Virus record (IMG/VR): IMGVR_UViG_3300047480_000606
Location: 1 to 20,625 of that record
DNA length: 20,625 nt
Reading direction: 5' to 3' (one strand)
Source: a virus
This document shows, piece after piece, positions 1,104 through 19,965 of this stretch. Below the pieces are notes generated by a model. The model saw only the letters and a program-made list of their open reading frames with translations. It did no database searches and was not told where the DNA came from. The stretch's first letter is position 1, and each line of letters opens with the position of its first letter. Made by a program: the position numbers and the translations under genes.

Positions 1104-1135
1104 TTTGGAAATACGAAAATAATTTCGTATCTTTG
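1104..1135 (+). promoter_or_regulatory. Promoter P1, Bacteroidetes type
   Basis: TTTG at 1104-1107, a 20-nt spacer and TATCTTTG at 1128-1135 match the Bacteroidetes primary-sigma -33/-7 promoter. The bases TTTCG directly precede the -7 box, as in P5 and P6. It starts on the base after the stop codon of the small HTH gene and drives the four-gene operon at 1160-5439, leaving a leader of about 20 nt. Confidence 0.85.
1111..1130. promoter_or_regulatory. Perfect palindrome inside P1 (candidate operator)
   Basis: ATACGAAA at 1111-1118 and TTTCGTAT at 1123-1130 form an 8-bp perfect inverted repeat with a 4-nt spacer, placed between the -33 and -7 boxes and covering the first bases of the -7 box. 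A dimeric regulator bound here would block RNA polymerase. None of the other promoters in the window has a palindrome of this length. It may partly reflect the shared TTTCGTAT promoter sequence, so operator function is inferred. Confidence 0.45.
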
Positions 1136-1159
1136 TAAAATATAAAAGAATAAAAGGTT

Positions 1160-2392
1160 ATGTATTTAGATTACTTTGATAAGTTTTATGGTATGACACC
1201 ATATCTCTTTATCGGTAAAGAAGAATGGGAGTGGATTAAGGAAACTTTTAATAGAGAAGATGTAAAAGAATCTCTTGCAAAGGTTGCAGCAACTTATGAC
1301 ATCCCATATGCAGAAATTACCGAAGGAGAAGCGAGAAACGAATATCTTAAATTAAAAGGATTTCGTTGGCACGAATTATTTACCGAAGGAGAGTGGGTGC
1401 CAAGAAAGGCATCGGAATCTCGTTATCCATTAACGTTTCAAGGTAAACAACAATTCGTTAGAAGAATAAACACTGGCAATCCTGCCTCAAATTATTTTCA
1501 ACAAGCAAATAGATGGAGTGTAGATGGCACTGTCTCACCTGGTCCTTATAGGACGTGGAACAACCCTGATTTTATGTTCTCACTTATGGGTGGTATGTAC
1601 ACTTTAAAATTTGATGAGGTAAGTAAAAATACATTACGAACTTGTCTTTCTCTACGAAAATATATTTGTTCCCAATTTAAACCTAATGTTGCAAAAGTAT
1701 TATACGATTTTGTAGAAGCAAAAAACGTATTAGACATTTCAGCAGGGTGGGGAGATAGATTGTGTGGATTCTACGCATCAGAATACGGAGAACATTATGT
1801 AGGTATTGACCCTCGTAAAGAAAATCACCCAATTTATAGACAACAGGCAGATTTCTATGAAAAAAATAATGGATTCTTTGAAACTGAAAAGAGGTCTACA
1901 TTTTATGAATCCCCCGCGGAAGATTTAGATTTAAGTGAATATAAAGAATACTTTGATATTGTATTCAGTTCCCCACCATATTTCAACGTAGAGAGATATT
2001 CATACGATGAAACACAAAGTTGGGTTCGCTACAAAACAATTGATGATTGGAACAAAAACTTTTTACATAAAACAATTGCTAATGTTTGGCCTACAATCCG
2101 TAAAGGTGGTTATTTGGCTATAAACATTGCAGATGTATATGCATCATCAAAAGGTGATGGTAAAGGTCAACAAGAAATCACCAACCCTATGAACGATTTT
2201 ATTGGTACTCTAGAAGGTGCAAACTACGAGGGATGTTTGGGTATGGAAATGGCGAAACGACCGGGTTCTGCAGGTGCTGGAATGATTATAGATGGTGATG
2301 AAGAAAGATATTCCGAAGAGGAGTTGAAAAAAAATGAAGAAGCCAAAGATAAAACATTCGGAGAACCGGTGTGGGTATGGCGTAAATTATAA
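1160..2392 (+). CDS. DNA-methyltransferase-like protein (SPPY catalytic motif), copy A
   Basis: Class I SAM-dependent methyltransferase-like protein of 410 residues. Motif I is VLDISAGWGDRL near residue 190 (SAM binding), an acidic VGIDPR follows where the SAM ribose is bound, and the catalytic motif SSPPYFN is near residue 270; SPPY is typical of enzymes methylating exocyclic amino groups (N4-cytosine or N6-adenine). The C-terminus GEPVWVWRK resembles the end of DNA methylases. The first 180 residues match no domain I recognise. It is the first gene of the P1 operon, 11 nt ahead of a thymidylate-synthase-like gene. The protein at 10843-12480 is a clear paralogue (same SPPYFN block and NIAD motif). 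No restriction enzyme partner is present, so self-protection or an unusual base-modification step is more likely than classical restriction-modification. Substrate base unknown. Confidence 0.82.
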   Translation: MYLDYFDKFYGMTPYLFIGKEEWEWIKETFNREDVKESLAKVAATYDIPYAEITEGEARNEYLKLKGFRWHELFTEGEWVPRKASESRYPLTFQGKQQFVRRINTGNPASNYFQQANRWSVDGTVSPGPYRTWNNPDFMFSLMGGMYTLKFDEVSKNTLRTCLSLRKYICSQFKPNVAKVLYDFVEAKNVLDISAGWGDRLCGFYASEYGEHYVGIDPRKENHPIYRQQADFYEKNNGFFETEKRSTFYESPAEDLDLSEYKEYFDIVFSSPPYFNVERYSYDETQSWVRYKTIDDWNKNFLHKTIANVWPTIRKGGYLAINIADVYASSKGDGKGQQEITNPMNDFIGTLEGANYEGCLGMEMAKRPGSAGAGMIIDGDEERYSEEELKKNEEAKDKTFGEPVWVWRKL

Positions 2393-2403
2393 AAATAAAT
2401 AAT

Positions 2404-3102
2404 ATGACAGTAATAGAAGCAACATCTCCTGGCGATGCATGGGTAAAAGTATCTAAACATCTTATTGTAAATGGAGTAAAAGTAGGTGATTTAACCGAAG
2501 AACTAAATGTGATGACAGAAATCACAAAGTTTGAATCCGATGATTGGTTTGACCCTCATTTCAGAGAGATTATGGGTGATGATAGAATTGATTATGCAAA
2601 GACCGTAACATTCTTAGAACCACAACCATTTGTTTCAGATTCACCATTTTTCCAAGCAGAAGAAGGGTTGGAATATAAATTCATCAAAGATAAATGGCAT
2701 GATTCATATTGGGGTAGAATGGTTTCATGGCAAGGAACATTTAATCAGGTAGAAAATGTAATCAAAATCTTAAAGACTGGTAAAGCAGTTAAGAGATGTG
2801 AATTGATTATCTTTGACCCGAGTAGAGATGCTAGAAATCCATACTCACAACCTTGTATGTTAGCAATCGATATTAAACCTCGTAATGGTAAAATCTACCT
2901 AACATCAATCATTCGTTCAAATAGAGTATCTAAATCAGGTTACGCAGATTATACTGCATTAGTTGAAATGGGTAAATTCTTAGCGAAAGAAAGTGATATG
3001 GAATTAGAAAAAGTATCAGTATTAGCTTGTTCTTGTCATATCGGTAAAATGAATGATGAAACTAAAAAAACTCATAAGTTATTAGAAGTATTAAATAAAT
3101 AA
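2404..3102 (+). CDS. Divergent thymidylate synthase / dNMP hydroxymethylase-fold protein
   Basis: 232 residues. The second half follows the thymidylate synthase pattern: YSQPCM places a catalytic-type cysteine at C151, followed by RSNR at 171-174 (cf. RSND), a YADYTALVEMGKFLA helix in place of FNIASYALL..., and a CSCHI near the end where ThyA has DAHIY. The N-terminus (AWVKVSKHLIVNG...EELNV) resembles the archaeal/phage ThyA start. The family transfers a one-carbon unit from methylene-tetrahydrofolate to position 5 of dUMP or dCMP. Here the PFN segment whose asparagine recognises the uracil ring is not present (SG in my alignment) and only one arginine of the phosphate-binding RR pair is visible, so substrate specificity is likely altered. 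It is coupled to the AsnB gene (1 nt apart). Fold assignment is fairly good; reaction is unknown. Start ATG follows the A/T-rich leader AAATAAATAAT. Confidence 0.72.
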   Translation: MTVIEATSPGDAWVKVSKHLIVNGVKVGDLTEELNVMTEITKFESDDWFDPHFREIMGDDRIDYAKTVTFLEPQPFVSDSPFFQAEEGLEYKFIKDKWHDSYWGRMVSWQGTFNQVENVIKILKTGKAVKRCELIIFDPSRDARNPYSQPCMLAIDIKPRNGKIYLTSIIRSNRVSKSGYADYTALVEMGKFLAKESDMELEKVSVLACSCHIGKMNDETKKTHKLLEVLNK

Positions 3103-3103
3103 T

Positions 3104-4609
3104 ATGTGTGGAATCGTAGCAACCATAGGGTGTAATAGAGATGAGGTAAATGAAATGTTGGAAGCGATAGAACATCGCGGAAGAGATAATAGAGGAATTA
3201 AAGAATTCCAATATGGAGATAAACACATCATCTTAGGTCACAATCGTTTATCAATCAACGATACATCACCATTAGGAAATCAACCGATGGAATATGATGG
3301 AGTTCAATTGGTAGTAAATGGTGAAATTTGGAATTACCCAACTTTGCGTAAAGAATATGAAGAAAGAGGTTATACGTTCAAATCAAATTCAGATTCAGAA
3401 ATTATTTTATTCTTATACAAAGAAGGTGAATTGAAAAGATTAGAAGGTATGTTTTCTTTCGTAATCTATGATAAAAATAAATTGATTTTATCACGAGATT
3501 GGGTAGGTAAATTACCATTATACATTCTGAATAATAACGAATACATCATTGCAAGTGAAATCAAAGCAATCACTACAAAAACTAAAAGTGCAGATATTAG
3601 ATTTGTTCCTAAAAATAGTTTGGTAGAAATTGATTTAGATACTGATAAACTTACAATAACACCAAACTACTATTTTCAATTTTCAGCAGAACCTACAAAG
3701 GTAGAATCACATCAAGAAGTAAGTGAAACAACATTCAAACTTTTAGAAAGAGCAGTAGATAAAAGATTATTATCAGATGTTCCTATTGCAACATCTTTAA
3801 GTGGTGGTATTGATTCTGCCGTTATTACATACTTATTGTCACAACGAATACCCAATTTGAAAGCTTATACAATTGCATTTGATGAGTCCTCTAAGGATTT
3901 ACAAAAAGCAAGAGTATGTGCCGATTATTTAGGTGTAGAATTGGTAGAAGTCTTTGTTCCAAAAGATGATGAAATAATCAAACAACGTTTCTTAGAATCA
4001 ATCAAAGTAATTGAATACCCATCGACCGTTCAAATGGAAGTAGGTATTTTACAATCCTTTATTGCAGAACAAATGGCGAAAGATGGAATCAAAGTAGCAT
4101 TTAGTGGTGAAGGTAGTGATGAATCGTATGGTTCGTATGGAACATTCCGTATGTTTAGTAAGAAACCTGATTGGAGTGATGTTCGTAAGAAATTATTTGA
4201 GAAACAATATCATGGAAATTTATTAAGAGGTAATACTATCTTTATGAATTACGGAACGATTGAATTAAGATGCCCATTCTTTGATACTGATTTTTTAAAT
4301 TATACTACCAACTTAACCGATGAGTATTTGTGTAAAGGTGGACAATGGAAATTACCACTGGCTAATGCATTTAGAGGTAAATTACCAGATGAGATATTAG
4401 ACCAGGAAAAAAGAGCATTTCAAAAAGGAACAAATTTCAAATCATACATCGAAGAAATTATTGTAAATGACAAAAATATCAATTTCAAAAATAGAAAAAA
4501 GATATTGCATGTAATTGGTGATAATTTTGAAAAAATACATGGATTCTCTCATAAAAATATGAAGGGAGAATTGACATCAAATACAGGAGGAATTTACAAA
4601 TGGATTTAA
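3104..4609 (+). CDS. AsnB-type glutamine-hydrolysing asparagine synthetase / amidotransferase
   Basis: Complete two-domain enzyme of 501 residues. The N-terminal class II glutaminase begins MCGIVA with nucleophile C2, and has HRGRDNRG, HNRLSIND, VNGEIWNY and SDSEIIL motifs. The C-terminal synthetase has the PP-loop SGGIDS at residues 233-238, FSGEGSDE, and the LRCPFFD and PDEILDQEKRAFQKG segments. The family adenylates a carboxylate with ATP and converts it to an amide using ammonia from glutamine. All visible catalytic motifs are intact. Its position between a ThyA-like gene and a PLP-enzyme gene suggests that the acceptor may be a nucleotide- or DNA-linked carboxylate rather than free aspartate; ordinary asparagine synthesis cannot be excluded. 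Its last seven codons (NTGGIYK) match the tail of the next protein, which is odd (see repeat). It overlaps the next gene by 10 nt. Confidence 0.9.
   Translation: MCGIVATIGCNRDEVNEMLEAIEHRGRDNRGIKEFQYGDKHIILGHNRLSINDTSPLGNQPMEYDGVQLVVNGEIWNYPTLRKEYEERGYTFKSNSDSEIILFLYKEGELKRLEGMFSFVIYDKNKLILSRDWVGKLPLYILNNNEYIIASEIKAITTKTKSADIRFVPKNSLVEIDLDTDKLTITPNYYFQFSAEPTKVESHQEVSETTFKLLERAVDKRLLSDVPIATSLSGGIDSAVITYLLSQRIPNLKAYTIAFDESSKDLQKARVCADYLGVELVEVFVPKDDEIIKQRFLESIKVIEYPSTVQMEVGILQSFIAEQMAKDGIKVAFSGEGSDESYGSYGTFRMFSKKPDWSDVRKKLFEKQYHGNLLRGNTIFMNYGTIELRCPFFDTDFLNYTTNLTDEYLCKGGQWKLPLANAFRGKLPDEILDQEKRAFQKGTNFKSYIEEIIVNDKNINFKNRKKILHVIGDNFEKIHGFSHKNMKGELTSNTGGIYKWI
4580..4601 (+). repeat. 22-nt direct repeat, copy 1 (3' end of AsnB gene)
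   Basis: Bases 4580-4601 match 5413-5434 at 20 of 22 positions. Here they encode NTGGIYK at the AsnB C-terminus and also supply AGGAGG (4585-4590), the only canonical Shine-Dalgarno I noticed, nine bases before the start of the PLP gene at 4600. Copy 2 encodes NIGGIYK at the end of the PLP enzyme. Confidence 0.7.
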
Positions 4610-5439
4610 GATTAAAAGGATTAAACGAAGACACCCCATTAGAACTTTATCATATTAAAGGTAGAGAAGTTTGGGTAAAAAGAGATGACCTTATGGGTGA
4701 TGGAGTAACATTACCGCCGTGGGGTAAGATAGCAGCAGTATATGAATTAGTAAAAAAATATGTGGATAGAAGCAAACCACTAACACACCTTTCAGTTGAT
4801 GGAAGTTGGACAGCATGGGTTCTAGCAGCAATTTGTGAGCAATTAGATATTGAATTTTATGCATCACACCCTGATTCTAAAAAAATATCACAAGAATATT
4901 TGGGTTTAATCAAAGAAAAATATCCAAAAACACATTTGAATCCTATTAGACCTAATATGATGCAAATTATGTATAATTCTTTAAGAGGTCAAGCAAGAGA
5001 AAATGGATGGCAAATGCTACCTTACGCTTTTGACCATGATTTCTATAAAGATTATCTTGCGGAACGAATTCAACCATTTACCCATTTCGATAATTTAGTT
5101 GTATCATCTGGTAGTGGTGTAACCTTATCGGGTTTAGCAAGAGGATTTTATAGAGAAGAATTAAAGGAGTTTTTTCCTGATGTCAAAAGAAAGATTTGGA
5201 CAACATGTGTATCATCAGAAAGTTCAATCAAAAAAACCCTTAAAAAAAGTGGAATTCCAATTCCGTTAAATATCCGTAAATCGGAGTATCTTTTTGAGAA
5301 TAGGTTGGATGGATACGAAGCCCCCTTTCCTTGTAATCAATTTTGGGATATAAAGCAGTGGAAATGGTTAGAAGAAAACATAGACCAAATTGAAGGAACT
5401 ATTTTGTTCTGGAATATAGGTGGAATTTACAAATTTTAG
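4600..5439 (+). CDS. PLP-dependent enzyme, fold type II (ACC deaminase / D-cysteine desulfhydrase-like)
   Basis: 279 residues. TPLEL near 12-16 and VWVKRDDLMGDG near 24-35 match the start of the ACC deaminase/D-cysteine desulfhydrase group; K43 in PPWGK occupies the place of the PLP-binding lysine of GGNK. GSWTAW (68-73) sits where the family has QSNHTR, so the substrate carboxylate loop is changed. SSGSGVTLSGLARG near 169-182 is the phosphate-binding glycine loop, and the tail WNIGGIYKF fits the usual HTGG...F ending. Such enzymes do elimination, deamination or beta-replacement on amino acids. At 279 residues it is shorter than typical relatives (about 330). Last gene of the P1 operon, overlapping AsnB by 10 nt, with AGGAGG nine bases upstream. 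Likely role: handling an amino-acid-derived group in the same pathway as AsnB; substrate unknown. Confidence 0.8.
   Translation: MDLRLKGLNEDTPLELYHIKGREVWVKRDDLMGDGVTLPPWGKIAAVYELVKKYVDRSKPLTHLSVDGSWTAWVLAAICEQLDIEFYASHPDSKKISQEYLGLIKEKYPKTHLNPIRPNMMQIMYNSLRGQARENGWQMLPYAFDHDFYKDYLAERIQPFTHFDNLVVSSGSGVTLSGLARGFYREELKEFFPDVKRKIWTTCVSSESSIKKTLKKSGIPIPLNIRKSEYLFENRLDGYEAPFPCNQFWDIKQWKWLEENIDQIEGTILFWNIGGIYKF
5413..5434 (+). repeat. 22-nt direct repeat, copy 2 (3' end of PLP-enzyme gene)
   Basis: Matches 4580-4601 with two mismatches, both in the first nine bases, and encodes NIGGIYK. In this copy the peptide fits the conserved C-terminal TGG segment of the PLP family, so this copy is probably the original. 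Confidence 0.7.
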
Positions 5440-5447
5440 GATAAATA

Positions 5448-5479
5448 TTTGGTAATATCAAAATTTATTCGTATATTTA
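5448..5479 (+). promoter_or_regulatory. Promoter P2, Bacteroidetes type
   Basis: TTTG at 5448-5451, 20-nt spacer with ATTCG at its end, and TATATTTA at 5472-5479 (last base differs from TATnTTTG). It lies 9 nt after the PLP-enzyme stop codon and serves the GHKL ATPase-polymerase unit. The leader to the ATG at 5579 is about 95 nt, much longer than those of the other promoters here (roughly 10-35 nt). Confidence 0.78.
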
Positions 5480-5578: not shown

Positions 5579-7195
5579 ATGGACAACTTAAAGTACACAA
5601 AAAAAGAATTAACAATCACCTCTGATGTTTATATAACGCAAGATGGTGCAGCATACGGGTCTCCATCCGATGCCATTAAAGATGCAACCGATAATTGTTT
5701 AATCGGTTCAACCCACCCAGAATTACCGGCCGACCACATTAGGAAAGTTAAAATAGTTTTTCATTGTACAGCATCAGATTCAATTCCAACTCAAATTGAT
5801 ATTATTGATAATGGAATTGGTATGGATGTTGATACTATTTTAAATTCATTATTTATAACCAATAAAAATAATACAACTAAACAAGATAATATATCGGGTG
5901 GCACATCTCGATGGGGAATGGGATATAAAGCATTTACTCATTATTTAGGTAAACCCGGTATTGTAATTAGTAGAACGATTGAACAAGCAAAAAACGGATT
6001 ACCGGGTACTATAGCATCGGTAATGTATGTAAATGGTAAATCACCAGAAACAAAGTATGCAGAATGTAGTGAAGACCGTTTTTTAGCAGAACGTAATTGT
6101 GGATTACTTGAAAAACATGGTACTAAAATAACAATAACGGATATAAAGAAAGAAAAATGGCCAAAATCTTGGTGGAAACCAAAAGGTCAAACGTTTCACA
6201 AAGATTGGGAATGTAGATACCATAGATTATTATCAAAAGGAAATTTACAAATAGAATTAATTTTAAAAGAACCAAATACTCCACCTAAAACCAGAATATT
6301 AGAACCAGCAGAATTTATATTAGATAACAATCCAGCAGCAATTGTAGATTATAAAAAAACTGGATATCTAAAATGTTCTAGGAATTCATGGAATGTTATT
6401 GAAAATTTAAAAATAGATGGGTATGATACCGAATTTCCTATAAAAATTGGTAAACATTTAGCACCAATGCAAAAACAAGCTTGGGATGTACTTGGTAGTA
6501 TAAATTTATTAGCAGGTTCATCTACTAAAGCACAAAATCCAACAATACGATATTATGAATCTGATATATTAATAAGTGTTGTCACATTTAAAGGTAGTGA
6601 TAGAGATGCTGGATTATCACATTTAAATGGGTTGTATGTGGAAGTTGATGTACCTGAAAATGTAAATGTACCAACTAATGTTGTGAAAAATAAATTAGAT
6701 ACTGCATTTACAAATTTAACACAACAATTAATACAAACCAGGGCAGAACAAATTTGGAAACCTGCCAAAATAAATGAAGCAGCATATCATAAACAATTTG
6801 AAGAAATATTATATCATGATATGAAAGGAGCAGGAATTCGTTCTAAAATGTTTGATTCAATTGACGTAGAAGAGTTAAAAAAATTGATTAAACATGAAGA
6901 CCAAAGTTCCTCATTTAGACCGGATTGGAAACAATATAGTGATTCCAGTAAAACATCAGTTAGACGAATTATTGAAATGAAAGATGATATAGCAGATAAT
7001 TCAATAACTTCGCAAGTAGCGGGATATGTATTGGATAATCCAGAAGCAATTGAAGTTATCATAATAGCACCAGGATTTAATCAATCGGTAAAACAAATTT
7101 TTCATACATGGAATGATAAAGCATCTAATAGAACCGAAGTAACCACCAAATTTACTACATATACTTTTGATGAAATTGGTATGCATCAATTATAA
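5579..7195 (+). CDS. GHKL-superfamily ATPase of unknown role
   Basis: 538 residues. The N-terminal ATP-binding domain shows the Bergerat fold motifs: DAIKDATDN at 31-39 (N box), IIDNGIGMD at 75-83 (ATP-lid DxGxG), and SGGTSRWGMGYKAF at about 107-119 (second glycine box). In Hsp90, MutL and GyrB the N box carries a catalytic glutamate; here the matching residue appears to be aspartate (D35), which may lower or alter hydrolysis. The C-terminal 350 residues match no domain I recognise; I see neither a TOPRIM domain nor a histidine-kinase dimerisation helix, so T4 topoisomerase gp39 and sensor kinase are unlikely. It is co-transcribed with the DNA polymerase (23 nt downstream), which suggests a role in DNA metabolism, chaperoning of the replisome, or defence/counter-defence. 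Fold confident, role unknown. Confidence 0.8.
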   Translation: MDNLKYTKKELTITSDVYITQDGAAYGSPSDAIKDATDNCLIGSTHPELPADHIRKVKIVFHCTASDSIPTQIDIIDNGIGMDVDTILNSLFITNKNNTTKQDNISGGTSRWGMGYKAFTHYLGKPGIVISRTIEQAKNGLPGTIASVMYVNGKSPETKYAECSEDRFLAERNCGLLEKHGTKITITDIKKEKWPKSWWKPKGQTFHKDWECRYHRLLSKGNLQIELILKEPNTPPKTRILEPAEFILDNNPAAIVDYKKTGYLKCSRNSWNVIENLKIDGYDTEFPIKIGKHLAPMQKQAWDVLGSINLLAGSSTKAQNPTIRYYESDILISVVTFKGSDRDAGLSHLNGLYVEVDVPENVNVPTNVVKNKLDTAFTNLTQQLIQTRAEQIWKPAKINEAAYHKQFEEILYHDMKGAGIRSKMFDSIDVEELKKLIKHEDQSSSFRPDWKQYSDSSKTSVRRIIEMKDDIADNSITSQVAGYVLDNPEAIEVIIIAPGFNQSVKQIFHTWNDKASNRTEVTTKFTTYTFDEIGMHQL

Positions 7196-10842: not shown

Positions 10843-12480
10843 ATGAGTAAATACTATTACGAACGCTCGAAATTTTCTGAATTCCAATCCAATACAACTT
10901 ATCATCAGTTACTACAAATGACTGATGATGAGTTTGTTAATTGGGCTAAGTTACTACGCAAGGAAGTAACGAAGCAATGGGATGAAGATGGTGTACCACC
11001 CGTTATTGGTAAAGATAAGGATGGTATTATCGAATCATTTAAAAAACTAAAAGGAAACGATTGTGATTTCCTACAAAAAGATTTATCAGGCGATGATGAG
11101 TCGTTGGGTATTATTCAGAATTTTAACAAAGATGCATCTGCAATCAATCAGTTTTTCCCTACTATGTTGAAAACTAAAATTTCAATTGGGAAATCTGCTG
11201 ATGGTGGATTATCTATTTATGACCATTTCTCTGACCCGAACTTAGAAGACCAATTCGTAAAGATTATGCGTAGAGCTGTTAAAAGAGATTCTATGTATTC
11301 CTGGTCACGTTCTATTGTAAACAAAAAAGATGAGAACGAATTTTGGGATGGTGAAACTGGTGTAGAGTTTATCCAAAAAGTGCACGAAGGTAAAATCTTT
11401 GTTGGTAAACATTCTAATTTGGATATTGTAATTGCAAAGGTAAAAGAAGATACAATTGATAATTACGGAACTATTAACGAACAATATATTGGATTTGGTA
11501 ATCTATATCTAAACGCAGAACAATTACAAGAATGTGTAGATAAGGGGTGGTTAAACCATACCCAAATGTCTAACGTAAAAAAGATAGAAGACCATTTAAC
11601 ACTTGCAGATGGTAAAACAACTAAAAAGTTTTATTATCTGATTCGTTGGTATGATAAGACAGTTGGTATATTCCCTAAAATCTTACAAGTATTCAGATTA
11701 AGCTGTGGACAACCTGCTGTAAATTTCCCTGCATTAACTGCTAAATGGATTTACGAAAATTACACATCTCATATTGAACAAGATGAACCATTACACATTT
11801 ATGATTCATCAAGTGGATGGGGTGGTAGAATCTTAGGTGCAATGAGTAGTAGAAAGAAAACTCATTACATTGGTACTGACCCTAACCCTGATAATTTTAT
11901 TCCAGAGTTAGGTATATCTCGTTATGAATATGCAGCTAAATTCTACAATGATAATTGTGTAGATGATTTTTCTGAATCATTTGCTAAATTCTTTGATGTA
12001 GAGAAACAAGGTAATACATATGAATTGTTTCAAGATGGTTCGGAGTTAATTCAACACAATCCTAAGTTTCAAAAGTATAAAGGTAAATTGGATATATCTT
12101 TCACATCACCTCCATACTTTAATAGAGAACAATACTCACAAGATGAGAATCAATCGTTCAAAGCATATGGTGAATATGATGATTGGAGAGATAATTTCTT
12201 ACGTCCTACTTTAACTACCATTTATGATTATATGAAAAACGATAGATACATTCTATGGAACATTGCTGATATTAAGATTGGTAAAGATACTTACTATGCA
12301 TTAGAACAAGATTCTATTGATATTTTGAAAGAATTAGGGTGTGAGTATAAAGGTAAATTAAAGATGTTAATGACCAGAATGGTTGGATTAGACCCAACTA
12401 AGACAGGTATTAAGAACGCAGTAAAACACGATGGTAAAGCGTATAAGTTTGAACCAATCTTTGTTTTCTACAAACCATAA
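10843..12480 (+). CDS. DNA-methyltransferase-like protein (SPPY catalytic motif), copy B
   Basis: 545 residues; paralogue of the protein at 1160-2392 but with a longer N-terminal region of about 300 residues that I do not recognise. Motif I reads YDSSSGWGGRILGA near residues 319-332, followed by YIGTDPN, and the catalytic block is TSPPYFNREQYS near 421. NIADI and the final EPIFVFYK correspond to NIADV and EPVWVWRK of copy A. The SAM-binding pocket and the SPPY loop are therefore intact in both. It lies 3 nt after the clamp gene, so it is expressed with replication proteins, not with copy A. Likely acts on the exocyclic amino group of a base or on a modified base; base and sequence specificity cannot be read. 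The motif I variant GWGGR (GWGDR in copy A) suggests the two differ in activity. Confidence 0.82.
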   Translation: MSKYYYERSKFSEFQSNTTYHQLLQMTDDEFVNWAKLLRKEVTKQWDEDGVPPVIGKDKDGIIESFKKLKGNDCDFLQKDLSGDDESLGIIQNFNKDASAINQFFPTMLKTKISIGKSADGGLSIYDHFSDPNLEDQFVKIMRRAVKRDSMYSWSRSIVNKKDENEFWDGETGVEFIQKVHEGKIFVGKHSNLDIVIAKVKEDTIDNYGTINEQYIGFGNLYLNAEQLQECVDKGWLNHTQMSNVKKIEDHLTLADGKTTKKFYYLIRWYDKTVGIFPKILQVFRLSCGQPAVNFPALTAKWIYENYTSHIEQDEPLHIYDSSSGWGGRILGAMSSRKKTHYIGTDPNPDNFIPELGISRYEYAAKFYNDNCVDDFSESFAKFFDVEKQGNTYELFQDGSELIQHNPKFQKYKGKLDISFTSPPYFNREQYSQDENQSFKAYGEYDDWRDNFLRPTLTTIYDYMKNDRYILWNIADIKIGKDTYYALEQDSIDILKELGCEYKGKLKMLMTRMVGLDPTKTGIKNAVKHDGKAYKFEPIFVFYKP

Positions 12481-12857: not shown

Positions 12858-15800
12858 ATGAAAAAACTAATTTTATCGTTAGTTTTCGCAATGACTTCGT
12901 TTTTAGGATTTAGTCAGATTACTACTTCCTCAATTTCGGGTGTTGTGAAGAACGAGAAAAATGAAGTGTTGGTAGGTGCTACGATTCACGCAGTACATAC
13001 CCCAACTGGTACGCAGTACAATGCTGTGACCAACAAAAATGGTGCATATGTTTTACCTGCAATTAGAGTAGGTGGACCATATACATTACACACTACTTAT
13101 GTAGGGTACAAAAAAGATGAAATCAAAGATGTAAATACTCAATTGGGTATTACTACAAACGTTGATTTTATTTTAGTTGATGAAACTACTACATTAAAAG
13201 AAGTGGTGGTAAGTGCCGGTAGAAATAATATTATCTCAAGAGAGAGAACCGGAGCATCACAACAATTCAGTAGAAGAGATTTACAAAACATCCCTATTAC
13301 TGGTGCAAGAACAATCGATGGTATTACAAAGTACAATCCAAACGGAAACGGAAACTCATTCGGAGCACAAGATTCTCGTTTAAATAACTTTACAATCGAT
13401 GGTTCTCAATTCAATAATGGGTTCGGGTTAGGTTCATCTGCACAGGCGGGTGGTAGAACTGGTGCATCTGCTATTTCATTAGATGCAATCGAACAATTAC
13501 AAGTGAACATTGCACCATTCGATATTCGTCAATCAGGTTTCACTGGTGCTGGTATCAATGCAGTAACAAGAAGTGGTACAAACGAAATCGAAGGTTCGGT
13601 ATATCAAACACAAAGAGATAATTCATCTACATATGTTGGTGATAACGCTAGAGGAACAAAAGTAACTGCATCTAAATTTGATGAGAAAGTACAAGGTTTC
13701 CGTTTAGGTGCACCAATCATTAAGAACAAATTGTTTATTTTTGGAAACTACGAACAAATTGAAAAAACTGAACCAGGTACAACTTGGATTTCAACAGGTT
13801 CTCCATTGACAGGTTCACAAGTAAGTAGACCAACTTATACACAATTATCAGACTTATCTAAATTTATGCAAGATAAGTTTAACTACACAACTGGTCCGTT
13901 TGAAGGATATTCTAACACAAATGCTTCTAAGAAATTCTTAGTTCGTATGGATTGGAACATCAACGATAAACATAAATTAACGGCTCGTTATGTACAACAT
14001 GATTCTGAAGCAGAGATTAATATTTCAAACTCTACATCAGCAGGATTTGGTAATAGAACAACTTCAGCATTAGCAATGAGTTTCCAAAATAGTGGTTATA
14101 TTATTATGGATAATACTCGTTCTTATGTATTGGAATTAAACTCTAAATTATCAAACACTTTACATAACAACTTAATTGTTGGGTATGATAAACAAATTGA
14201 GGATAGAGCATATCGTTCTCAAATGTTCCCAACGATTGATATTAAGGATGGTGCAACAACTCTTACATCAGTAGGTTTTGACCCATTCACACCGGGAAAC
14301 AAATTAGATTATAATACTTTCCATATTACGAACAACTTAACAAAGTATGCAAACAAACACACTTTGACATTTGGTTTTAATTATGAGAAATACCAATCTA
14401 ACAACTTATTCTTCCCAGCATCTAATGGGGTTTACATCTTCAATAGTTTAGCAGATTTCTACACTGCAGCTAATCAATCATTAGCAAATGGTGGAGCACC
14501 TTCTACATTAGTTCCAGCTCGTTTCCAATTCCGTTATTCGGCGTTACCAGGAGCAGTTGACCCAATGCAAACTTTGAAAACTGATAGATTAGATGTTTAC
14601 GGCCAAGATGAATTCCAAGCAACTGAAAACTTAAAATTCACATTAGGTTTAAGAGCAGCAATCATTGGATTTGAACAAACTGCATTGGAAAACCCTGCAG
14701 TAACTGCAATGACATTCGCTGGTGGATTGAAATTTAACACAGGTAAATTACCTTCTACACAAACTTTATTAGAACCACGTATTGGATTTAACTATGATGT
14801 ATTTGGTGATAGAAAAACTCAATTAAGAGGTGGTAGTGGTGTATTCACCGGTAGACCTCCATATGTGTTTATCTCAAATCAAGTGGGTAATAATGGTGTG
14901 TTGACTGGGTATATTGATGTAAGTGGTTCGGCTGCAACTAATTATGGTTTCACAGCTAATCCTAACAAATACTTTATCCCTTCAACTCCAACTTTACCAT
15001 CAACATTTGATTTAGCATTTACGGAACAAAACTATAAGTTCCCACAAGTTTGGAAAACAAATATTGCAGTTGACCAAAAATTACCATTCGGTTTTATTGG
15101 TACTGCTGAATTTATTACAAACAAAAACTTAAATGCAGTTCATTATTATAACGCAAACTTTGGTGTTCCAACTGGTATCTTTGCAGGTGTTGATACAAGA
15201 GCGATGTATGGTAGAACTGATGCGAGTGTTAGAGTAAATGGTAATGTTTCAAACGCTATCGTATTAGCAAATTCAAATGATACATATTTTAATTCATTAA
15301 CGTTGAAATTAGAATATCCGTACCAAAAGGGTGTATTCGGTTCATTTGCATGGACAACATCAACTGCACAAGATTATTTAAGTGCAGGTTCAATTGCTAG
15401 TGGTAGTTGGACTGGTGCAAGAAGTGTAAATGGTAATAATAGTTTATCTCTTTCTAATTCAGATTTCTTATCTCCAAATCGTTTAGTTGGTTTGTTAGGA
15501 TATAGATTAGAATATGGTAAAGGTATGGGTGGTGCAACTTCATTCACATTAGGATATGTGGGTAATCAAGGTTCTCCATTCTCTTACACAATCGGTGGTG
15601 ATATGAACGGAGATAGAATCTCTAATAACGATTTAGTTTTCGTACCAAACAAAGGTTCTGATATTAAATTCGCACCATTGGTAGTAGGTACAAGAACTTA
15701 CACACAAGAAGAACAACAAGCAGCATTTGATGCTTACATTGGACAAGATGAATACTTATCAACTCGTCGTGGTCAATATGCTGAAAGAAATGGTTCATTC

Positions 15801-16127
15801 TTACCAATGTTACATAGATTCGATTTATCAGTAGTACAAGACATCTATGTAAATGTTAAAGGTAAAAAGAATACAATCCAAATCAGAGCAGATATTTTGA
15901 ACTTTGGTAATTTATTAAATAATGAGTGGGGTGTTTCTCAAAGAGCAACTATCCCAACTATCTTAAACTATTCAACTACAACAAATGGTGAACCAGTTTA
16001 TAAGTTAGCAACTCAAAAATTAGCAGATGGTTCTACTATCTTAGCTAGAGATACATATCAATACAATTCATCCGTATTTGATGTATGGAGTGCTCAATTA
16101 GGTATTCGTTATATCTTTGGTAGATAA
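12858..16127 (+). CDS. TonB-dependent outer-membrane receptor, Oar-like, with carboxypeptidase-regulatory-like N-domain
   Basis: 1089 residues, full length. Residues 1-19 (MKKLILSLVFAMTSFLGFS) are a signal peptide, likely cleaved next to Q20. Residues about 24-110 form a carboxypeptidase-D-regulatory-like beta domain (SISGVVKNEKNEVLVGATI, NKNGAYVLPAI, YVGYK). A plug domain follows from about 115 (LKEVVVSAGRN; LNNFTIDGSQFNN; SLDAIEQLQVN; GAGINAVTRSGTNEIEGS), then a large beta barrel with alternating aromatic strands ending LGIRYIFGR. DMNGDRISNNDL near 916-927 resembles a calcium-binding loop. Such proteins import substrates across the outer membrane using TonB energy. No stop or frameshift interrupts it. 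A complete host-type receptor inside phage replication genes is unusual. Possible roles are nutrient uptake, receptor exchange, or superinfection control; contig chimerism is unlikely because the surrounding promoters and codon use are continuous. Confidence 0.95.
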   Translation: MKKLILSLVFAMTSFLGFSQITTSSISGVVKNEKNEVLVGATIHAVHTPTGTQYNAVTNKNGAYVLPAIRVGGPYTLHTTYVGYKKDEIKDVNTQLGITTNVDFILVDETTTLKEVVVSAGRNNIISRERTGASQQFSRRDLQNIPITGARTIDGITKYNPNGNGNSFGAQDSRLNNFTIDGSQFNNGFGLGSSAQAGGRTGASAISLDAIEQLQVNIAPFDIRQSGFTGAGINAVTRSGTNEIEGSVYQTQRDNSSTYVGDNARGTKVTASKFDEKVQGFRLGAPIIKNKLFIFGNYEQIEKTEPGTTWISTGSPLTGSQVSRPTYTQLSDLSKFMQDKFNYTTGPFEGYSNTNASKKFLVRMDWNINDKHKLTARYVQHDSEAEINISNSTSAGFGNRTTSALAMSFQNSGYIIMDNTRSYVLELNSKLSNTLHNNLIVGYDKQIEDRAYRSQMFPTIDIKDGATTLTSVGFDPFTPGNKLDYNTFHITNNLTKYANKHTLTFGFNYEKYQSNNLFFPASNGVYIFNSLADFYTAANQSLANGGAPSTLVPARFQFRYSALPGAVDPMQTLKTDRLDVYGQDEFQATENLKFTLGLRAAIIGFEQTALENPAVTAMTFAGGLKFNTGKLPSTQTLLEPRIGFNYDVFGDRKTQLRGGSGVFTGRPPYVFISNQVGNNGVLTGYIDVSGSAATNYGFTANPNKYFIPSTPTLPSTFDLAFTEQNYKFPQVWKTNIAVDQKLPFGFIGTAEFITNKNLNAVHYYNANFGVPTGIFAGVDTRAMYGRTDASVRVNGNVSNAIVLANSNDTYFNSLTLKLEYPYQKGVFGSFAWTTSTAQDYLSAGSIASGSWTGARSVNGNNSLSLSNSDFLSPNRLVGLLGYRLEYGKGMGGATSFTLGYVGNQGSPFSYTIGGDMNGDRISNNDLVFVPNKGSDIKFAPLVVGTRTYTQEEQQAAFDAYIGQDEYLSTRRGQYAERNGSFLPMLHRFDLSVVQDIYVNVKGKKNTIQIRADILNFGNLLNNEWGVSQRATIPTILNYSTTTNGEPVYKLATQKLADGSTILARDTYQYNSSVFDVWSAQLGIRYIFGR

Positions 16128-16226: not shown

Positions 16227-17861
<1,635 letters not shown>

Positions 17862-17884: not shown

Positions 17885-18832
17885 ATGGCATTTTTTGAAG
17901 AAGTAGCAAAAGAAGAAACTAACAATACACTTTGGGTAGAAAAATATAGACCTAAGAAGTTGGAAGATTATGTGGGTAATGACCACCTAAAACAAAAGAT
18001 TAGTGATTATATTCAGACAGGTGATGTTCCTCATTTACTATTATTTGGTAAAGCAGGAACTGGTAAAACTACACTTGCAAAGTTGATAGTAAATTCAATC
18101 AATTGTGATTATATGATTATTAACGCATCTGATGAGAATAACGTAGATACTGTCCGTAATAAGGTAAAATCATTTGCTTCTACTATTGGATTCAAAGATA
18201 CAAAAATAATTATCTTAGATGAGTTTGATTATATGACTCCAAACGCACAGGCAATCTTGCGTAACTTAATGGAAACTTTTTCAAAACATTGCCGATTTAT
18301 TTTGACCTGTAATTATGTTGAAAAGGTAATTGACCCAATTCAATCTCGTTGTCAAACATTCCAAATTGTTCCACCTACTAAAAGAGATGTTGCAATTCAA
18401 ATTAGTAAAATTCTAAATGCAGAAAAAATACAATTTGAACCAAAGGAAATAGTTCCAATCGTAGATGCATCATATCCAGATATTCGTAAGATTATTAATA
18501 CTTGTCAATTGAATTCATCTAAGGGTGTATTGAAAGTTGATACAAGTTCAATCTTAGATTCGGATATTAAAGTTAAAGTTGTTGATATTCTTAAATCAAA
18601 AGATGATAAGAGAAATCGTTATGTAAATTTAAGACAAGCAATTGCAGATTCTCGTGTTCAAGATTTTACTGAATTATACACATATCTTTACGAAAAGGTA
18701 GATGATTATGCACAAGGTAATACATCTGCAGTTATTTTAGAGTTGGCACAAGGACAACATAAAGATGCATTAGTAGTAGATAAGGAAATTTGTTTTATGG
18801 CAACTTTAATTGGAATCAACGGAATTATATAA
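17885..18832 (+). CDS. Clamp-loader ATPase large subunit (T4 gp44 / RFC small-subunit-like)
   Basis: AAA+ ATPase of 315 residues. WVEKYRPKKLEDYVG at 17-31 is the RFC box, the Walker A loop GKAGTGKTT is at 55-63, Walker B LDEFD at 111-115 carries the DEFD form also present in T4 gp44, sensor 1 is TCNY with N143, and SRC at 154-156 provides the arginine finger acting on the neighbouring subunit. It hydrolyses ATP to open and load the sliding clamp onto primer-template DNA, in complex with the gp62-like protein encoded at 20240. It starts 23 nt after groEL in a typical AAATAAATAAT leader, without its own promoter, and overlaps the next gene by 1 nt. Confidence 0.93.
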   Translation: MAFFEEVAKEETNNTLWVEKYRPKKLEDYVGNDHLKQKISDYIQTGDVPHLLLFGKAGTGKTTLAKLIVNSINCDYMIINASDENNVDTVRNKVKSFASTIGFKDTKIIILDEFDYMTPNAQAILRNLMETFSKHCRFILTCNYVEKVIDPIQSRCQTFQIVPPTKRDVAIQISKILNAEKIQFEPKEIVPIVDASYPDIRKIINTCQLNSSKGVLKVDTSSILDSDIKVKVVDILKSKDDKRNRYVNLRQAIADSRVQDFTELYTYLYEKVDDYAQGNTSAVILELAQGQHKDALVVDKEICFMATLIGINGII

Positions 18833-19377
18833 TGAGTAAAATTATAAATCTATTTGGTGGGCCGGGTATTGGAAAATCTTCAATCGCATCCGGCCTTACC
18901 TATAAACTTAAAAAGAAACATATAACGTGTGATAATCCATATGAATTCCCTAAACAATTAGCTTGGGATGAAAATCATTTGGCAATTAAAGACCAATTAT
19001 ATGTGTTGGCAAATCAACATAGGGGTATTGTAAAAAGTTTTGGTAAGGTAGATTATATTATCTTAGATTCACCAATCTTACTCTCATTAGTATATCGTTC
19101 TGCTTATACTGGTTTAGAGTATCCAGCAACCTTATATGGAGAGTCTTTTGATAAAATGGTATTAGATATACATAATCAGTATGATTCTCTAAATATCGTT
19201 CTAAAACGAACGGAAGGTGGGTATAACGAAAAGGAACGCTATCAATCTTTGGATGAATCTAAGGAATTGGATAGACAAATCGAAGATACATTAGTAAAAA
19301 ACAATATATCATATAATTCCGTATTGGTTGGTGATAAGACGGTAGATGATATATTAAAAATATTGAATATATCTTAA
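18832..19377 (+). CDS. P-loop NTPase, probable kinase-like protein (AAA_28-like)
   Basis: 181 residues. LFGGPGIGKSS at 7-17 is a Walker A loop with K15 and S16, and YIILDSPILLSLVYRSA (about 79-95) gives a Walker B-like strand followed by the DSPxLLS motif found in a family of small phage and bacterial nucleotide/cofactor-kinase-like NTPases. The reading frame continues upstream to 18790, but the real start is at 18832: it gives a TAATG overlap with the clamp-loader stop and puts the Walker A strand at its usual distance from the N-terminus. Reaction and substrate are not evident; location with replication genes would fit a role in nucleotide metabolism. Confidence 0.8.
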   Translation: MSKIINLFGGPGIGKSSIASGLTYKLKKKHITCDNPYEFPKQLAWDENHLAIKDQLYVLANQHRGIVKSFGKVDYIILDSPILLSLVYRSAYTGLEYPATLYGESFDKMVLDIHNQYDSLNIVLKRTEGGYNEKERYQSLDESKELDRQIEDTLVKNNISYNSVLVGDKTVDDILKILNIS

Positions 19378-19659: not shown

Positions 19660-19965
19660 ATGTCAAACGAACAATTAGCAAAACCATTAGGAGATAGAGT
19701 CCTAATCGAAGTAGAAGTAAAAGAAAAGACCGTTGGTGGAATTATCATACCAGACACTGTCAGAGATGGTGAAAATCAAATTGGAGTAGTAGTTTCAGTT
19801 GGTAATGGTATTTATACCCAATCAGGTACTAAAATTCCAATGGAAGTAGAAGTGGGTGATAAAGTAATGCTTCCTGCAGGTGGTATGAGTTTGCGTAAAA
19901 TCAAATTGGGTGATAAAGAATACTATCTATGCAGAGAGATGGATTTAGAAATGATTATAAAATAA
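19660..19965 (+). CDS. groES: Co-chaperonin GroES (10 kDa subunit)
   Basis: 101 residues, near the usual 95-100. KPLGDRVLIEVE at 11-22 is the conserved first strand, and the mobile loop EKTVGGIIIPDTV at 28-40 carries the GGIIIP segment that docks into the GroEL apical domain; the acidic and basic ends match the family (VEVGDKVMLPAGG; YYLCREMDLEMII). It caps the GroEL ring to form the folding chamber. In bacteria groES directly precedes groEL in one operon; here it is separated from groEL by the clamp-loader, kinase-like and small genes and by promoter P6, so the two are controlled separately. Both subunits being encoded suggests a matched phage chaperonin. Confidence 0.95.
   Translation: MSNEQLAKPLGDRVLIEVEVKEKTVGGIIIPDTVRDGENQIGVVVSVGNGIYTQSGTKIPMEVEVGDKVMLPAGGMSLRKIKLGDKEYYLCREMDLEMIIK

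Follow-up and report, generated by a model that had tools for sequence, protein, structure and literature searches.

A cassette of four genes in the IMG/VR virus record IMGVR_UViG_3300047480_000606 encodes a DNA methylase-like protein (MT), a thymidylate synthase (ThyA)-like protein (ThyL), an AsnB-type ligase and a pyridoxal phosphate (PLP) enzyme. Judging from protein sequences and structural models, this cassette is, on balance, probably a phage DNA-hypermodification module aimed at cytosine, in which the base would receive a C5 handle, an amino-acid-type elaboration and a final amidation. The window analyzed here is the complete 20,625-base record, whose gene content (family B polymerase, sliding clamp, clamp loader, GroEL and GroES) is that of a large tailed phage. 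A first-pass annotation of this DNA had proposed a hypermodification operon; the conserved unit and the family ties of its proteins uphold that proposal in part, while its chemistry stays conditional and ThyL does not hold as an obligatory starter enzyme. The cassette and the promoters that delimit it are arranged as follows.

1104..1135, + strand: Bacteroidetes-type promoter TTTG-N20-TATCTTTG, upstream of the cassette (exact pattern match)
1160..2392, + strand: MT, DNA N6/N4-methylase-like protein of 410 amino acids (aa), with a variable N-terminal part of ~170 aa and an S-adenosylmethionine (SAM)-dependent core carrying the SPPY motif (phrog_12517)
2404..3102, + strand: ThyL, ThyA-superfamily protein, 232 aa, predicted cytosine-nucleotide C5-hydroxylase or hydroxymethylase (TIGR03283, structure model)
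3104..4609, + strand: predicted glutamine-dependent amide ligase of AsnB type, 501 aa, lacking the Asp-binding motif (TIGR01536, active-site comparison)
4600..5439, + strand: fold-type II PLP enzyme, 279 aa, D-cysteine desulfhydrase/1-aminocyclopropane-1-carboxylate (ACC) deaminase fold (phrog_7093, structure model)
5448..5478, + strand: promoter-like TTTG-N20-TATATTT of the next unit, marking the cassette end (pattern, last G missing)

The four open reading frames (ORFs) are all intact and lie on the + strand with spacings of 11, 1 and -10 nucleotides (nt), and the promoter copy at 5448-5478 begins 9 nt past the PLP stop codon. The window holds 8 copies of the Bacteroidetes pattern TTTG-N17..23-TAnnTTTG where 1.8 would be expected, 0 of 100 shuffles reach 8, and a sigma-70 promoter scan of the window gave sites no more numerous than in shuffles. 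ORF and pattern scans therefore agree with the annotated layout of one promoter followed by four closely spaced genes that end before the next promoter. An extended form, TTTGG...TTCGTAT(C/A)TTT, is common to five + strand promoter-like sites, at 1104, 5448, 10060, 16177 and 19384.

Searches of IMG/VR returned 49 loci for ThyL and 30 loci for the PLP enzyme, and alignment-based searches returned 60 and 80 loci, respectively. Linkage was counted in 48 distinct ThyL contigs whose flanks measure at least 1.5 kb on the upstream side and at least 3 kb on the downstream side. In 47 of these contigs an amide ligase lies near ThyL, of the AsnB type in 34 and of a shorter type in 13. All 48 have a PLP enzyme (44) or a radical-SAM enzyme (4), and 45 have a member of the MT methylase family; the ligase and PLP/radical-SAM genes always share the strand of ThyL. 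Clustering of the ThyL proteins concerned gives 21 groups at 90% identity and 8 at 70%, and the order MT-ThyL-ligase-PLP persists at ThyL identities of 44-48% (L049, L050, L123, L124-L129), in contigs that reach 376 kb. In another phage group (L184, L196, L199, L222), MT2, the longer member of the MT family described below, stands directly upstream of ThyL. The association of these genes is far beyond chance. It had been proposed that the four genes form a unit, a view that would fail if their homologues were never found together elsewhere; the IMG/VR neighbourhoods confirm their co-occurrence.

The cassette parts are INTERCHANGED, the ligase, PLP and ThyL positions each showing replacements. 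AsnB is swapped for a PP-loop ligase of ~305 aa that has no glutaminase domain (L030, L037, L042, L124-L129). A radical-SAM enzyme takes the place of the PLP enzyme in L118, L121, L122 and L130, and both are present in L036 and L175, so that the two enzyme types alternate or combine at the presumed place of amino-acid elaboration. Next to ThyL at L120:4630-6888, the radical-SAM enzyme is naturally fused to an N6_N4 DNA methylase. No relative of the cassette radical-SAM enzyme was found among isolated phages at E 0.01. By analogy, conserved linkage combined with interchangeable ligase and elaboration modules resembles the pattern of hypermodification pathways and speaks for a DNA-hypermodification role, as do the ribonucleotide reductase, thioredoxin, PolB and clamp genes that neighbour the cassette locus.

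ThyL belongs to the thymidylate synthase superfamily, combining the ThyA fold with a nucleophilic cysteine (Cys151) and a phosphate-binding arginine (Arg171). Its match to TIGR03283, the model of an archaeal ThyA family, has E=2.3e-18, below the cut-off of that model. Its structure model, with a predicted local distance difference test score (pLDDT) of 91.9, is closest to AfhB (9iqu, Z 20.6, 2.5 Å over 195 residues; 9iqc, Z 20.2), followed by the cytidine monophosphate (CMP) hydroxymethylase MilA (Z 20.1) and thymidylate synthases (~18), ThyA-fold chains spanning Z 17-21. A profile search of PDB sequences likewise gave MilA at 8.6e-9, AfhB at 1.8e-8 and thymidylate synthases at 4e-4 or weaker. 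The catalytic Cys151 and the residues Arg171, Ser172, Asp182 and His212 are invariant in 35/35 ThyL homologues. Asp182 corresponds to Asn177 of the E. coli enzyme, the base-reading position, where Asn denotes uracil and Asp denotes cytosine (PMC8670742, PMC5175136). The cytosine-type Asp is also found in AfhB and in the close isolated-phage relatives of ThyL, nattely and Mareelih, and ThyL shares this feature with the cytosine C5 hydroxymethylases and hydroxylases T4 gp42, MilA and AfhB. Canonical ThyA residues are replaced at three places, with Asp182 for Asn177, Arg or Ala at the 169 position and a residue other than Tyr at the 209 position. A separate, full canonical ThyA is encoded in 4/11 large relatives, and the copies read in L133, L135 and L136 carry Asn177; together with the invariant Asp182, this led us to reject ThyL as the phage thymidylate synthase.

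Ser172 of ThyL corresponds to E. coli Ser167 and to the position of the published MilA residue Ala176. Ser in place of the ribose-type Ala speaks for deoxynucleotides as substrates, and a ribose preference was rejected. ThyL further resembles MilA and T4 gp42 in its ThyA fold, catalytic Cys and cytosine-reading Asp, and its Lys130 is MilA-like, but it differs from MilA in the deoxy-type Ser172 and from both in that the Asp169 and perhaps the Glu58 positions are not kept. AfhB is an RB69-type enzyme annotated as a phage deoxycytidine monophosphate (dCMP) hydroxylase/flavin adenine dinucleotide (FAD)-dependent monooxygenase (9iqu, 9iqc), and the Mosigvirus 5-hydroxy-dCMP synthase has been described (PMC13390438). 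In the RB69-like phages, which carry 5-arabinosyl-deoxycytidine (PMC13390438), AfhB shares with ThyL the cytosine-type Asp and the loss of the Asp169 and Tyr209 positions, and it is the best structural match; ThyL, whose activity is a prediction, is nevertheless only 17% identical to it, and no arabinose genes lie beside ThyL. The cofactor of ThyL may be either folate, as in hydroxymethylases, or flavin, as in AfhB.

The AsnB-type protein matches TIGR01536 with E=6.9e-88 and retains the glutaminase Cys2 and the ATP pyrophosphatase motifs (MCG, NGE, SDSE, SGGIDS, GEGSDE and a later Lys). The TTIRAS/TTVRAS motif, common to the E. coli and human enzymes and which we take to be the aspartate-binding site of asparagine synthetase B, is replaced family-wide by an STVQMEVG-type sequence; with this motif lost, a function as asparagine synthetase was rejected. 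The best relative from an isolated phage is the ligase of the Streptomyces phage TurkishDelight (33.6% over 91%), which has AQVEIG at the place of the Asp motif and lies in a ParB-ParB-methylase-ligase-methylase cluster (ParB-CmoX-CmoY-CmoA-like). Phage Motura has another relative, within a 7-deazaguanine cluster. For the ligase that has no glutaminase domain, distant kinship extends to CmoY of the Synechococcus phage S-B43 (E=0.002, partial coverage) and to ligases of Erwinia Y3 and Staphylococcus F1 whose genes adjoin CmoA- or CmoX-like ones. The cassette ligases thus group with AsnB-family ligases of phage Cmo clusters. S-B43 CmoY joins glycine to 5-carboxymethylcytosine in DNA, and use of ammonia is predicted for the glutaminase-bearing CmoY group (PMC12783734). 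The AsnB-type protein is very probably an amide ligase related to this base-modifying group, and not an asparagine synthetase; both the lost motif and the CmoY kinship support its annotated role as the amide-forming enzyme of the cassette.

The Cmo pathway of S-B43 (PMC12783734) resembles the cassette in forming an amide with an AsnB-family ligase, in having ligases both with and without a glutaminase domain, in the common ligase lineages (TurkishDelight, S-B43, Erwinia Y3, Staphylococcus F1) and probably in its target, a cytosine C5 group. It differs in that the cassette has ThyL and a PLP or radical-SAM enzyme in place of CmoA and CmoX. The PF00145 C5-methylase (CmoX) and the TIGR00740 carboxy-SAM synthase (CmoA) were found in 0/13 cassette-bearing records, several of which are fragments. 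Membership in the Cmo pathway was rejected on this basis, and the carboxylate, if any, must therefore have another source.

The PLP enzyme is a candidate for that source. It matches phrog_7093 with E=1.4e-23 and PALP with E=0.002, and its model adopts the ACC deaminase/D-cysteine desulfhydrase fold (Z 24 to 1j0a). All 38 homologues, and M6 gp052 as well, keep the Schiff-base residue Lys43, in agreement with a fold-type II PLP enzyme. Relatives occur in 61 isolated-phage records, all of Pseudomonas, Bordetella, Sphaerotilus or Stenotrophomonas phages, and those inspected are of the M6/YuA type, SN1 included. The M6 pathway, as Lee et al. in 2021 are said to have described it, uses amino acids and PLP decarboxylases. 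The cassette enzyme and the PLP enzyme of the M6 cassette are 27% identical, and in the Sphaerotilus phage SN1 the PLP enzyme is listed within an M6-like thymidine-hypermodification cassette (PMC9476957). This kinship lends weight to the hypermodification role that the PLP enzyme had been given.

Taking the enzyme families, their intact catalytic residues, the conserved linkage and the module swapping as observed, we infer the substrate, order, product and purpose as follows. Because an amide ligase of base-modifying lineage is constantly present, the substrate should bear a carboxylate, and the cytosine type of the ThyA enzyme points to a cytosine nucleotide with a handle at C5. ThyL would add a one-atom or one-carbon handle to C5 of a cytosine nucleotide, probably dCMP, yielding 5-hydroxy- or 5-hydroxymethyl-dCMP. 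The PLP enzyme, elsewhere replaced or joined by the radical-SAM enzyme, would build an amino-acid-type, carboxylate-bearing group on this handle. The AsnB-type ligase would then activate the carboxylate with ATP and form an amide from glutamine-derived ammonia, and the glutaminase-less ligase would join another amine, possibly an amino acid. The methylase-family proteins may act sequence-specifically on DNA, either as writers or as methylases that accompany the modification. Host nucleases would in the end be blocked by bulky cytosines bearing an amide.

Several observations weigh against this scheme. Among 47 PLP contigs with enough flank, 11 have a 2-hydroxyacid dehydrogenase in the place of ThyL (L062, L065, L067, L071, L195, L203, L214 and relatives), in orders such as AsnB-dehydrogenase-PLP or MT-PLP-dehydrogenase-AsnB; in no case did ThyL occur together with the dehydrogenase, and a 202-kb contig of the dehydrogenase type has 0 PF00303 (ThyA-family) matches. 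ThyL therefore cannot be the starter of every version, and the ThyL-free form is not explained by the proposed steps. Taken together, the module swaps indicate that the ligase, the PLP/radical-SAM enzyme and the methylase are the constant core, with ThyL as the more frequent of two partners that substitute for each other. The first-pass view that the divergent ThyA-fold protein would prepare or bind an altered nucleotide is upheld in part, in that its cytosine-type Asp sets it apart from thymidylate synthases. Plain hydroxymethylation by ThyL is also uncertain because the Asp169, Tyr209 and perhaps Glu58 positions are not kept, the aligned place of Glu58 being variable and lying in a weak part of the N-terminal alignment. 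A dCTP-removing enzyme of the dUTPase_2 type was not found, other dCTPase families lying outside the search, which weakens the case for full substitution at the deoxynucleoside triphosphate level. Finally, the MT family also occurs in Bacteroides and Vibrio phages that have no cassette.

The role of the methylases allows more than one explanation. MT matches phrog_12517 with E=1.4e-15, its distant homologues L122 and L124 exceed the cut-off of Pfam PF01555 N6_N4_Mtase (E~3e-8), and 18/18 aligned sequences contain SAM motif I, SxGWG(D/G)R, and the SPPY motif (motif IV) of N6/N4 methylases. Phages encode 2 to 5 MT paralogues (L124, L126, L127); within one phage their cores are 66-93% identical and their N-terminal halves 27-41% (one pair 75%), which suggests diversified target recognition. 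The window itself holds a second member of the family:

10843..12480, + strand: MT2, second, longer member of the MT methylase family, 545 aa, adjoining the sliding clamp (phrog_12517, E=9.7e-11)

From sequence, a plain sequence-specific methylase and an enzyme acting on a modified base appear equally possible for MT. The chances are about even that the MT-like proteins are ordinary N4-cytosine/N6-adenine methylases directed against restriction, merely travelling along while ThyL, the ligase and the PLP/radical-SAM enzyme alone make the modification. Their SPPY motif and PF01555 membership, the members that stand alone in Bacteroides and Vibrio phages, and a divergence between paralogues of the kind expected for diversified target recognition all agree with such a role, but the family lies near the cassette in 45/48 ThyL contigs and in 44/47 PLP contigs, the ThyL-free form included, and the L120 fusion joins a methylase to the cassette's own radical-SAM enzyme. 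A bolder proposal, which we consider improbable although worth stating, would make the MT proteins sequence-specific writers, with one core and several N-terminal recognition halves, all installing or completing a single amino-acid-amide cytosine decoration supplied by the ThyL/ligase/PLP (or radical-SAM) core.

Other explanations set aside cytosine in DNA as the target. Pathways of nucleoside-antibiotic synthesis include PLP enzymes and amide ligases, and MilA, which acts in such synthesis, is among the top ThyL matches; the cassette product might accordingly be a small molecule, a modified cytosine nucleoside or nucleotide serving as decoy, inhibitor or signal, with the DNA left unmodified. 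We regard this as unlikely, since Ser172 favours deoxynucleotides, a DNA-methylase family is attached to the cassette, and the nearest relatives of the ligase act on, or cluster for, DNA bases. Still less probable is a thymidine-type pathway as in M6, with a 5-hydroxymethyl-deoxyuridine monophosphate handle, amino-acid transfer and PLP decarboxylation. The M6/YuA/SN1 cassette, which makes 5-aminoethyl-deoxyuridine, does share a related fold-type II PLP enzyme (27% identity) and a ThyA-family starter, and a radical-SAM enzyme, of the M6 kind or another, can be present here too. Its starter is uracil-type, however, whereas ThyL carries the cytosine-type Asp; an amide ligase is added here, and none is included among the M6-type genes listed for SN1; and M6 aGPT-PPlase2 had no match in 13 records, in a weak single-sequence search that had no positive control. 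Least probable of all is auxiliary metabolism, in which AsnB would produce asparagine, ThyL would produce thymidylate and the PLP enzyme would break down an amino acid, for example D-cysteine. Family-level names and the D-cysteine desulfhydrase/ACC deaminase fold as best match of the PLP model point that way, but throughout the ligase family another sequence stands where enzymes from E. coli to human have the Asp-binding motif, ThyL has Asp for the uracil-type Asn, relatives encode a canonical ThyA, and a metabolic reason for the modular swapping is hard to see.

The best reading is that the cassette represents a variant of phage DNA hypermodification that is separate from the Cmo and M6 pathways. 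The 5-hydroxymethyl-deoxycytidine carbamoyltransferase pathway (MetaGPA; PMC8670742) offers a further parallel, in that a ThyA-family starter is followed by a second enzyme adding an amide-bearing group to cytosine; that enzyme is a carbamoyltransferase there, in contrast to the ligase and PLP/radical-SAM enzyme here. No description of the four-gene set was found in the literature searched, although an earlier prediction in Lee et al. 2021 or Iyer et al. 2013 is possible, in keeping with the first-pass view that the exact set matches no pathway that could be named.

Further features of the window were recorded alongside the cassette. A NUMOD3 homing-endonuclease-like ORF at 91-678 overlaps the start of a thioredoxin gene, and in L118 and L123, too, the cassette contains or adjoins endonuclease-like ORFs. 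A protein with a GHKL-ATPase domain (HATPase_c_3, E=2.6e-6) is encoded directly 3' of the cassette, at 5579-7195. The ORF at 12858-16127 encodes a TonB-dependent-receptor-like outer-membrane beta-barrel protein of 1089 aa (PF25183, E=1.7e-53), with an apparent signal peptide and a carboxypeptidase-regulatory domain; this phage-encoded protein is also kept in the relatives L002, L003 and L055. GroEL (16230-17861) and GroES (19660-19965) are both phage-encoded. A P-loop nucleotide kinase at 18832-19377 is related to the phage 'thymidylate kinase' phrog_2107 (E=2.9e-15) and could be a kinase for a modified deoxynucleoside monophosphate.

The cassette appears to combine parts of three separately discovered chemistries, namely ThyA-family cytosine starters, M6-type PLP/radical-SAM elaboration and CmoY-type amidation, in a small, portable unit carried by dozens of uncultivated large phages of Bacteroidetes-type bacteria. 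The cassette-bearing contigs provide a concrete list of phages for DNA mass spectrometry. If the proposed pathway is correct, its enzymes would serve to place amide groups on nucleotides or DNA, and, should the MT proteins act as writers, these phages would possess site-specific DNA hypermodification with interchangeable chemistry. The proposed pathway, if correct, also predicts new amide-bearing cytosine bases in their genomes, with amines differing from one phage to another.

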